From a bacterium (GTDB lineage: Bacteria > JACRDZ01 > JAJRWM01): DNA of 6,314 nt. Location: NCBI GenBank assembly GCA_024276815.1, contig JAJRWM010000147.1, positions 1 through 6,314 of the forward strand, given 5' to 3'. Below are positions 2,349 through 6,094 of the stretch, piece after piece. The position numbers and the translations under genes are program-made. The notes below the pieces were generated by a model, which made no database searches, had not been told where the DNA came from, and saw nothing but the letters and a program-made list of their open reading frames with translations. Each line of letters begins with the position of its first letter. Within the stretch, counting starts at the first letter, position 1.

Positions 2349-3191
2349 ATGAAAATAGAGTTTTGGGGCACCCGGGGATCAATACCTTCGCCCGGTCCGG
2401 ACACCATTAAATATGGCGGGAATACGCCTTGTGTCGCCGTAACCCTGGAGGACGGCGCTCTGCTCATCCTGGACGCCGGCACCGGGATCAGGAAACTGGG
2501 CCTGGAACTGGAAAAAAACAATCAGACAATCAAAGGTAATATTTTTATCACCCATTCTCACTGGGATCATATTCAGGGGGTTCCTTTCTTCACGCCGGCC
2601 TACCGTGAGGGCAATGAGTTCAACATTTTAGGTTGCGCCAGCGTTAATCAGCAAATTCAGAAGAGTCTTTCCGACCTGATGCTCAGCCCTTATTTTCCGG
2701 TCAGTTTTGAAACGCTGAAAGCGACCATGAATTTTATCGACCGTGACCACGACGCGTTGGAGGTTCATAACGCCAAGGTCGAGTTAATCACGATTAATCA
2801 TCCCGGTGATGGTCTTGGTTTCAGGATCACGGAAAACGGCAAGGTCTTCGTGTTTTTAACGGATAATGAGTTGAACTCGCCGCAGTTTAATAAAACGTCT
2901 TACGGCGATCAGGTTGAGTTCTGCCGGGGCGCGGACCTGTTGGTTCACGACGCTATGTATACCAGGGAAGAATGGCAAGAGAAGCGGGGCTGGGGTCATT
3001 CTTATTATGTTGACGCGTTGCATTTGGCGATTGACGCCGGCGTAAAGCAACTGGCGTTGTTTCATCATGAACCGGAGCACAATGACGAGGCGATAGATAA
3101 TATTGTGGCTGACTGTCAGCGTATCCTCAGGAAGAAAGGTCTTTCTCTGACTTGCTTCGGCGCCCGGGAAAATCAAATCATTGAATTATAA
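2349..3191 (+). CDS. Metallo-beta-lactamase-fold hydrolase (PhnP / cyclic phosphodiesterase-like)
   Basis: This 280-residue cytosolic protein has an MBL fold of the COG1235 kind, a group that includes the cyclic phosphate phosphodiesterase PhnP and the WalJ/YycJ proteins. Metal-binding motifs are complete: HSHWDH (69-74), H151 in NHPGDGLGFRI, D172 in the LTDNE segment, HD (200-201), H217 in GWGHS and HH (239-240) in LFHHEP. The N-terminus MKIEFWGTRGSIPSPG is the usual family start. An in-frame TTG at 2304 would add 15 residues, but ATG 2349 is preferred because GGAG (2340-2343) lies 5 bases upstream and the family sequence begins there. It follows the HD-GYP gene on the same strand, and members of this family often occur near two-component or cyclic-nucleotide signalling genes. 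The substrate is unknown; a phosphodiester is the reasonable guess. Confidence 0.88.
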   Translation: MKIEFWGTRGSIPSPGPDTIKYGGNTPCVAVTLEDGALLILDAGTGIRKLGLELEKNNQTIKGNIFITHSHWDHIQGVPFFTPAYREGNEFNILGCASVNQQIQKSLSDLMLSPYFPVSFETLKATMNFIDRDHDALEVHNAKVELITINHPGDGLGFRITENGKVFVFLTDNELNSPQFNKTSYGDQVEFCRGADLLVHDAMYTREEWQEKRGWGHSYYVDALHLAIDAGVKQLALFHHEPEHNDEAIDNIVADCQRILRKKGLSLTCFGARENQIIEL

Positions 3192-3399: not shown

Positions 3400-4587
3400 T
3401 TATTTTTTAACGATCTTGACGTTGCGGTGACGACAATAAGGGCAGACTTTCCATTGAGGATCAAGGACTCTGCCGCAGTTAAAACAATTGTTGACCAGGT
3501 TGTAGTTACAGTTGGGGCAGACCACAAACTCAGGCAGGACACTGTTCTTGCAGCGGGGACAAAGAGACTGCAACTCAACCTGGAACATAATAATCCGAAT
3601 AAGTTCTTCCGGAGTGGTTAAACCCTCCCGGGCTTTGGCCAGGCCGTCTTCAGCCAGAGTCCGCATCCCCTGCTGGATCGCCTTGTTCCTGATTTCCGCT
3701 TCGCCGGGCACGGACTGGTTCAGCATTTCCTGGATCTCGGGAGTTAACGGCAGCATTTCATAAATACCAATCCGCCCGCGGTAGCCGCTGCCGCCACAGT
3801 AATTACAGCCCTTGCCGTGGTAAAACTGGTAATCTTTCCGGTCGGTCGGTAAATTCAACTTGCTCAGGACTTCAGGGGTGGGAGTATGCTCTTCCGTGCA
3901 GCGGGGACAGACCTTTCTCACCAGGCGCTGAGCGACAATGCCGTTTAGCGAGGAAGCGATAATATACTGCGGCACTCCGATATTAACCAGCCTGGTGATA
4001 GCGCTGGGAGCGTCGTTGGTATGCAGCGTGCTGAGCACCAGATGCCCGGTCAGAGCCGACTGGCAGGCGATTTCAGCGGTTTCGAGGTCCCGTATTTCTC
4101 CGACCATGATGACATCAGGGTCCTGACGTAAAATTGATCTGAGACCGCTGGCGAAGGTCAGACCGGCTTTTTCGTTGACCTGAACCTGGTTGATGTTTTC
4201 CATGTTATATTCAATCGGGTCCTCCACGGTTATGATATTCTTCACGTCGTCCTTAATCTGGTTGATGACAGCGTAAAGGGTGGACGACTTACCGCTGCCG
4301 GTGGGGCCGGTTACCAAAATCATACCCTGCGGCCGGTTAACCATGGTCAGCAAAAGATCGTGCGCCCGCTGTTCAAGCCCGATACTGTCCAGGGTGAAAA
4401 CGGCGTAGGCCTGATCCAGGATCCGGATTACAGCCGCCTCGCCGTGCTGAGTGGGTAAAGTCGATATCCGCAAGTCAATGTCGCGTTCCCTGGCCCGGAT
4501 CTTGATGCGGCCGTCCTGGGGGACCCGCTTCTCGGCGATATCCAGTTGGGCGACGATCTTGATGCGCGAAACGATAGGCCCCTGAAC
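3400..4587 (-). CDS. C-terminal part of the GspE/PilB ATPase: catalytic domain plus extra double zinc ribbon
   Basis: Directly after the TAG the same frame reads VQGPIVSRIKIVAQLDIAEK, which completes the N2E subdomain, then the RecA-like ATPase. Codons counted from ATG 5283: Walker A GPTGSGKSST (326-335), Asp box TVEDPIE (352-358), Walker B DPDVIMVGEIRD (388-399) and His box LSTLHTNDA (417-425). The CxxC pairs at 459/462 and 493/496 are the family's tetracysteine zinc site. The normal family end is around TPEELIRIIM. After it come four more CxxC pairs (575/578, 589/592, 600/603, 614/617), a double zinc ribbon, and a basic tail. There is no plausible independent start: the first candidate is TTG 4473, inside a conserved strand and without a good ribosome-binding site. 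This part is therefore probably expressed only by reading through the TAG. Confidence 0.85.
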   Translation of the reverse strand, partial: VQGPIVSRIKIVAQLDIAEKRVPQDGRIKIRARERDIDLRISTLPTQHGEAAVIRILDQAYAVFTLDSIGLEQRAHDLLLTMVNRPQGMILVTGPTGSGKSSTLYAVINQIKDDVKNIITVEDPIEYNMENINQVQVNEKAGLTFASGLRSILRQDPDVIMVGEIRDLETAEIACQSALTGHLVLSTLHTNDAPSAITRLVNIGVPQYIIASSLNGIVAQRLVRKVCPRCTEEHTPTPEVLSKLNLPTDRKDYQFYHGKGCNYCGGSGYRGRIGIYEMLPLTPEIQEMLNQSVPGEAEIRNKAIQQGMRTLAEDGLAKAREGLTTPEELIRIIMFQVELQSLCPRCKNSVLPEFVVCPNCNYNLVNNCFNCGRVLDPQWKVCPYCRHRNVKIVKK

Positions 4588-4590
4588 CTA
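4588..4590 (-). other. In-frame TAG codon within the ATPase gene
   Basis: The plus strand reads CTA here, TAG on the coding strand, between AAA (Lys231) and GTT (Val233). The site is between the N2E strands, where homologues usually carry a polar residue. One base change from GAG, AAG or CAG would create it. It could be a nonsense mutation, a base-calling error, a pyrrolysine codon or a suppressed amber codon. The other genes ending in this window stop with TGA (847-849, 5428-5426) or TAA (2182-2184, 3189-3191, 3402-3400). Confidence 0.9.
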
Positions 4591-5283
4591 TTTGGGCAAA
4601 TTAAAGATTGTTTTAAGCAGACCGTCTATCCGGAACCGGACCTGAACGTCGTTTTCCCGAGGCTCGATGTGGATATCGCTGGCTTTAGTGTCAACCGCCT
4701 TGTGTAATATCATGTTGAGCATCCGAACGATAGGCGCCATCTCGCTGCGTTTTTTCAGGTCCTGGATTTCTTTGTCGTCGAGGTCTTTACTCTCGGCGAC
4801 GATTTCGATATAAGCATCGTCGCCTATGCGTTGCAGAGTTGTTTCAACATTTTCCGGCAGGTGATAATTTTTGGTAATAGCGCTCATAATGGCGTTTTCC
4901 AAGGCGGCTACCGGGCGGATCTCCAGGTTCGCCGCGAACTTTAAATCTCTCAACGCGTCAAAATCCATGGGATCGGACATGGCGACCCAAAGTTCTTTGT
5001 CTTTCAGCCGGAAGGGCATAACCAAATACTTTCGCACAATATCAACCGACACTTTGGCGACAGCTTCTTTTTCTATTTTTTCCTCATTTAAGTTAACGAA
5101 GGGGATTTTGAGCTGATAAGCGACTGTCTGGGCTATATCCTGTTCCGAAGCGAGGTCTAGTTGAATCAGGACTTTTCCCAGTTTGATGTTATCTTTTTTC
5201 TGTATTTTGAGGGCTAATTTAAGCTGCTCTTCCGTAATCAGGCCTGATTCAACCAGCAGTTCGCCCAGTCTTTTTTTGACCAT
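4588..5283 (-). CDS. N-terminal part of the GspE/PilB ATPase: MshEN domain plus start of the N2E domain
   Basis: The 231 residues ahead of the TAG contain an MshEN (T2SSE_N) domain at about 1-145. Two 24-residue motifs are visible, RLGELLVESG...KIQ (5-28) and KLGKVLIQLD...AYQ (34-57), separated by exactly five residues. This is the arrangement by which MshEN domains bind cyclic-di-GMP. Residue D43 replaces the usual Gly/Asn in the second motif. A short charged linker (about 160-180) leads into EMAPIVRMLNMILHKAVDTK and ASDIHIEPRENDVQVRFRIDG (181-221), the beginning of the N2E ATPase subdomain. The fragment stops in mid-subdomain at NLPK. If translation truly ended at the TAG, the product would lack the Walker motifs and could not hydrolyse ATP, though it might still bind the nucleotide signal. 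Confidence 0.85.
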   Translation of the reverse strand: MVKKRLGELLVESGLITEEQLKLALKIQKKDNIKLGKVLIQLDLASEQDIAQTVAYQLKIPFVNLNEEKIEKEAVAKVSVDIVRKYLVMPFRLKDKELWVAMSDPMDFDALRDLKFAANLEIRPVAALENAIMSAITKNYHLPENVETTLQRIGDDAYIEIVAESKDLDDKEIQDLKKRSEMAPIVRMLNMILHKAVDTKASDIHIEPRENDVQVRFRIDGLLKTIFNLPK

Positions 5284-5301
5284 CGTTTCCCTTGTCAAGA
5301 C

Positions 5302-5321
5302 AAACCATAACAAAATGGTTT
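5302..5321 (-). other. Inverted repeat in the leader of the ATPase gene
   Basis: AAACCAT (5302-5308) and ATGGTTT (5315-5321) are perfect 7-bp inverted arms around a 6-base spacer. The inner edge is 19 bases upstream of the ATPase start codon. It could be an operator half-site pair or an mRNA hairpin close to the ribosome-binding site. No regulator is identified. Confidence 0.4.
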
Positions 5322-5425: not shown

Positions 5426-6094
5426 TCACAAAGTGTTGTCCAGCTCTTTTTTCATGCTGTACATCCTGATCAACTGGTGGATTACCATCTGTGCCAGGAC
5501 AACCAGATCCTCGAGGGAAAGGTAATGGAGGGCGGTCTCGTCAAACAAAACATTCAGAGCGGAATCCATTTCCTCATCGCCTCGCCAGTAGATAATTAAA
5601 ACCGGAACCCGGGGCAGAACTCTCAGGTGGCAGGAAAAATCGCCAAAATCGGTGGCGCGGCCGGGTAATTCCCTCAGCCAGGTGAAAAAGGCCTCCGGCT
5701 CCCGGTCAATAAACTTGCGCAGGGGTTCATTAGCGCGTTTGCAAAAGTTACTGAAGTAAGCGTGCCCGCCGGGAAGATCACGATACGACACCCATTTCCC
5801 GCTCAGGGAAACGCCGTCCGCGGTATTCAGGTAATGAAGCGTAATCAATTGCTGATAAATTATCACCTCGTCGTCCGAATCAAGGTCGCGGATTTTTTTC
5901 GCGGTCCGATTGACTACCAGCCGCTGGCTTAACCAGGGGAGTTCAATTGTAACCTGTCCGTCCACCTGGTTAACCGGGCAGCCGCTTTTTCTGGCCAGAG
6001 CCTGACAAGCTTTAGCGTCCAGTTCTTTCCAAGCCAGCGTCAACGCTGATTCATAGCCGTTTTTTAAATTGTTAAAATGGGGCTGGTTTTCCAT
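5426..6094 (-). CDS. DUF3786-like protein of unknown function
   Basis: This 222-residue soluble protein has no signal peptide or membrane segment. Conserved-looking blocks are YRDLPGGHAYFSNF (104-117), FGDFSCHLRVLPRVPV (150-165), IIYWRGDEEM (167-176), LFDETALHYLSLEDL (183-197) and a short C-terminal tail. These match my memory of the DUF3786 family, found mainly in anaerobic bacteria and archaea and without an established biochemical role. Two cysteines (30 and 39) near the N-terminus might bind a metal, but this is speculation. ATG 6094 is supported by AGGAGA (6104-6099), 4 bases upstream. It has a good promoter of its own and lies upstream of the ATPase gene on the same strand, with a 142-base gap between them. 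I see no evidence that the two proteins work together. Confidence 0.7.
   Translation of the reverse strand: MENQPHFNNLKNGYESALTLAWKELDAKACQALARKSGCPVNQVDGQVTIELPWLSQRLVVNRTAKKIRDLDSDDEVIIYQQLITLHYLNTADGVSLSGKWVSYRDLPGGHAYFSNFCKRANEPLRKFIDREPEAFFTWLRELPGRATDFGDFSCHLRVLPRVPVLIIYWRGDEEMDSALNVLFDETALHYLSLEDLVVLAQMVIHQLIRMYSMKKELDNTL

Follow-up and report, generated by a model that had tools for sequence, protein, structure and literature searches.

Does a lone in-frame TAG in an otherwise well-conserved bacterial gene reflect a real mutation, a split gene or an altered genetic code, or is it a fault in the assembled sequence? The window analysed here, a stretch of 6,314 nucleotides that makes up an entire contig (C73) of a draft assembly, raises this question through a gene for a PilB/GspE-type ATPase with a TAG codon on the minus strand at 4590–4588. 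The original prediction, made from the letters and their reading frames, offered a sequencing error, a recent nonsense mutation or a genome that reads TAG as an amino acid. Here we compare the window with the rest of its assembly and with related genomes, and find the first option favoured, the second still with some claim and the third unsupported. The TAG is most likely not a real feature of the organism, and it most likely signals no new genetic code.

The interrupted ATPase gene

The frame that carries the TAG spans 637 codons on the minus strand, from 5313 to 3403, and terminates with TAA at 3402–3400; the likely start of the gene is an ATG at 5283. In translation, the TAG (window 4588–4590) is residue 242 of the read-through frame and falls within the T2SSE Pfam domain (residues 190–573). 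The PilB/GspE match spans it with no change of frame, confirming the predicted single stop in an otherwise intact gene, and relatives from other genomes align straight through the position. Profile matches assign the upstream piece (4591–5313, minus strand) a complete MshEN domain and the start of the core domain. The downstream piece (3400–4587, minus strand) holds the remaining ATPase core, with the nucleotide-binding and zinc motifs, and a C-terminal double zinc ribbon. The roughly 395 conserved codons predicted to follow the TAG are borne out by a score of 480.8 bits for that segment by itself against GspE (TIGR02533), and the motifs said to be intact are all seen in the translation: Walker A (GPTGSGKSS), Walker B, the Asp box, the His box and CxxC...CxxC. 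The N terminus also fits an MshE-type c-di-GMP-binding motif.

Only with the TAG read through do the T2SSE core domain and these motifs lie in one frame and so place the gene in the PilB/GspE family. The read-through protein reaches 629.3 bits against PilB (TIGR02538; residues 16–574), below the cut-off of 675.65, and 601.5 bits against the GspE equivalog TIGR02533, below the cut-off of 630.25. As both equivalog cut-offs are missed, the exact role, in a pilus or in secretion, is not assigned. The gene matches the PilB/GspE assembly ATPases (TIGR02538, TIGR02533 and PF00437) in the order of its domains and in its nucleotide-binding and zinc motifs, but differs from them in its TAG interruption, in falling short of both cut-offs and in its additional C-terminal double zinc ribbon (PF12773; window 3400–3600), which extends past the usual PilB/GspE end. 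Two relatives from other genomes (L033 and L035) align over this tail too.

The nearest relatives compared are no closer than the phylum; the best match is 46% identical over nearly the full length, and a scan of genome contigs for a close relative returned identities of only 32–44%. The assembly contains two other, uninterrupted GspE/PilB genes (on C42 and C183) and a partial one at the start of a contig (C103), and holds no second copy of the TAG region against which the base could be checked. The neighbours of the ATPase gene encode a GAF plus HD-GYP-like protein, a metallo-beta-lactamase-fold protein and a DUF3786 protein (967–2184, 2349–3191 and 5426–6094, respectively), and no further pilus genes were seen on the contig.

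In-frame stops across the assembly

The assembly comprises 246 contigs and 2.39 Mb, with an estimated completeness of about 91%. We scanned 80 contig stretches, amounting to 816 kb, for coding frames that are broken by one in-frame stop and resume immediately, and many were seen; each broken frame was translated across the stop, entered as X, and the product scanned against NCBIfam, Pfam or PDB sequences. We kept only those coding-strand sites that agreed with the gene calls. A homology scan over all in-frame stops without filtering and a split-hit scan were both contaminated by mirror frames of conserved genes; with that limit, the split-hit scan showed no clear excess of frameshifts.

In these 816 kb, 26 in-frame stops fell within one family or one domain (16 TAA, 9 TAG and 1 TGA, the window TAG included). 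The interrupted genes include rpsA (S1; L070:11089–11091), rplA (L1; L156:1668–1670), tig (trigger factor), prmC, which has two stops (L131:9847–9849 and 10360–10362), and cysS (CysRS; L065:3781–3783), whose interrupted copy is the single copy in the assembly. They also include plsX, glmU, ilvB (acetolactate synthase), ptsI (L141:16099–16101) and nuoG (L135:14474–14476), together with genes for adenosylhomocysteinase, a UbiA-family enzyme and an SbcC-like protein. Several apparent interruptions, among them those at atpE/atpF, at rplI/dnaB and at the end of an arginine decarboxylase gene, are ordinary gene borders and were dropped. A PAS histidine kinase gene, a PilM-like gene and others appear broken with the stop outside a matched domain, and were left out of the 26.

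The same scan was applied to 629 kb from two genomes of the same phylum (229 kb of G001 and 400 kb of G003), where it mainly returned neighbouring genes with a start just past the stop. Ten suspicious control cases were scanned, one of which had a broken domain, and the other control pairs were assessed by eye. The sole broken case is an in-frame TAA in a histidine-kinase ATPase domain of G001 (L179:6316–6320). The excess of in-frame stops in the assembly over the controls, computed with 24 against 1, has p = 1.8e-5. The stops are spread over essential genes, at a level above that of the control genomes, as base errors would be.

The kind of change involved can be read where the displayed homologues agree on the residue that was lost. 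At all seven such sites the residue is Glu, which implies a G-to-T change from GAA or GAG to TAA or TAG. If all substitutions are equally frequent, Glu codons account for 22% of the codons one step away from TAA and TAG, and seven out of seven has a chance of 2.8e-5; were G>T and C>A the only changes, the Glu share would rise to 68% and the chance to 0.07. The homologues vary at the GlmU, PlsX, L1, S1, PilB and first PrmC sites, which are uninformative on the original residue. The seven Glu sites are a pointer to G-to-T errors, and the bias fits consensus base errors in a fragmented assembly. Such errors are perhaps oxidative in origin: oxidised guanine in sequencing libraries is known to leave G>T changes (PMC12390751).

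Origin of the TAG

Essential genes of this assembly carry such lesions much more frequently than do those of two genomes of the same phylum, and we therefore conclude that the TAG is probably a consensus error at one base, in a short contig from a fragmented assembly. Substitutions would arise during sequencing or assembly, and G-to-T errors, of which oxidised guanine is one known source, could survive where read depth is thin, as it may have been here; the window TAG would then share its cause with the other in-frame stops. The actual gene of the organism is probably an ordinary, uninterrupted gene for a PilB/GspE-type ATPase that, by analogy with its relatives, would drive pilus assembly or type II secretion. 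The scattered single-base stops in essential genes and the GAA/GAG bias resemble consensus errors in draft assemblies, including G>T artefacts of oxidised guanine (PMC12390751), cases from which the present one differs in that its cause is inferred.

Two observations qualify this explanation. The TAG at the PilB site need not derive from a Glu codon, since homologues show a mixture of residues there (K, R, S, D, N, W, E and others), with Trp in the two best full-length relatives; given such variation, the homologues do not determine the base change behind the TAG. In addition, the ATPase gene has paralogues and could be lost harmlessly. We therefore leave a smaller share of the probability, well short of even, to a real nonsense mutation of recent date, whether fixed or polymorphic, that would have struck one of several PilB/GspE-type ATPase genes and be tolerated on account of the other copies. 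The intact remainder of the gene agrees with such a mutation, as does the Trp codon of the two best full-length relatives, which is one base from TAG, and the two uninterrupted genes, along with the partial one, make a genuine fresh mutation more possible. However, stops of this kind occur in many of the assembly's essential genes, a pattern for which real mutation cannot account.

Translation of TAG and the status of the locus

Translation of the TAG through pyrrolysine or a suppressor tRNA, with a full-length ATPase as the product, would account for the conserved frame on either side of the codon, and an in-frame TAG within a conserved gene is what pyrrolysine decoding looks like. Here, however, the decoding machinery was not found. 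Profile searches of the genome, which is about 91% complete, gave best scores of 18.5 bits for PylS (cut-off 178) and 23.8 bits for PylD (cut-off 150). MttB, the only methylamine methyltransferase family searched, had no match in the genome, and PylS exceeded its cut-off in none of four genomes of the phylum. None of 33 tRNAs has a CUA or other stop anticodon, in a genome of which about 9% may be missing and under a general tRNA model that an unusual pylT may evade.

Release factor 1 is present (539.5 bits), and TAG is a common terminator. The 686 called coding segments that have a terminator end in TAA (285), TGA (231) or TAG (170, about 25%), whereas a reassigned TAG would be rare or absent in this position. 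The GspE/PilB paralogue on C183 (L098:1283–2983) itself ends in TAG, and the next gene, which from its sequence reads like gspF/pilC, begins two bases on; this speaks directly for TAG as a translational stop, and an ordinary one, in this genome. It is true, as the original prediction noted, that no gene of the window terminates with TAG, but with TAG at about 25% of gene ends the chance of this for five genes is 0.24. In the same 816 kb, genes are interrupted by TAA and TGA as well as by TAG. Ordinary TAG termination, no suppressor tRNA and a further intact GspE/PilB copy had been named as findings that would reduce the case to an error or a fresh pseudogene; TAG termination is ordinary here, no suppressor tRNA was found and two other GspE/PilB genes are uninterrupted. 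A translated TAG is accordingly very improbable, and a published screen for alternative codes likewise reports that in-frame stops in pseudogenes, and also contamination, gave it false signals (PMC8629427).

We also reject, as highly unlikely, a split of the gene into an N-terminal regulatory protein and a separate ATPase, both functional: the upstream piece does contain a complete MshEN domain, but the TAG lies inside the core T2SSE domain, away from a domain border, the first candidate restart is a TTG 38 codons on without a clear ribosome-binding site, and none of the relatives examined is split at this position. That TAA and TAG are at times translated as glutamate in essential genes of this lineage, by context-dependent stop decoding, an idea that stems from the Glu residues of relatives at all seven interpretable sites, is scarcely credible.

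Collectively, an isolated in-frame stop in a draft genome has to be weighed against the rate of such stops across its assembly, and this assembly is unfit for calls of pseudogenes or recoding without its reads. The useful result is the unusual load of in-frame stops that the assembly carries and their strong bias towards Glu codons.
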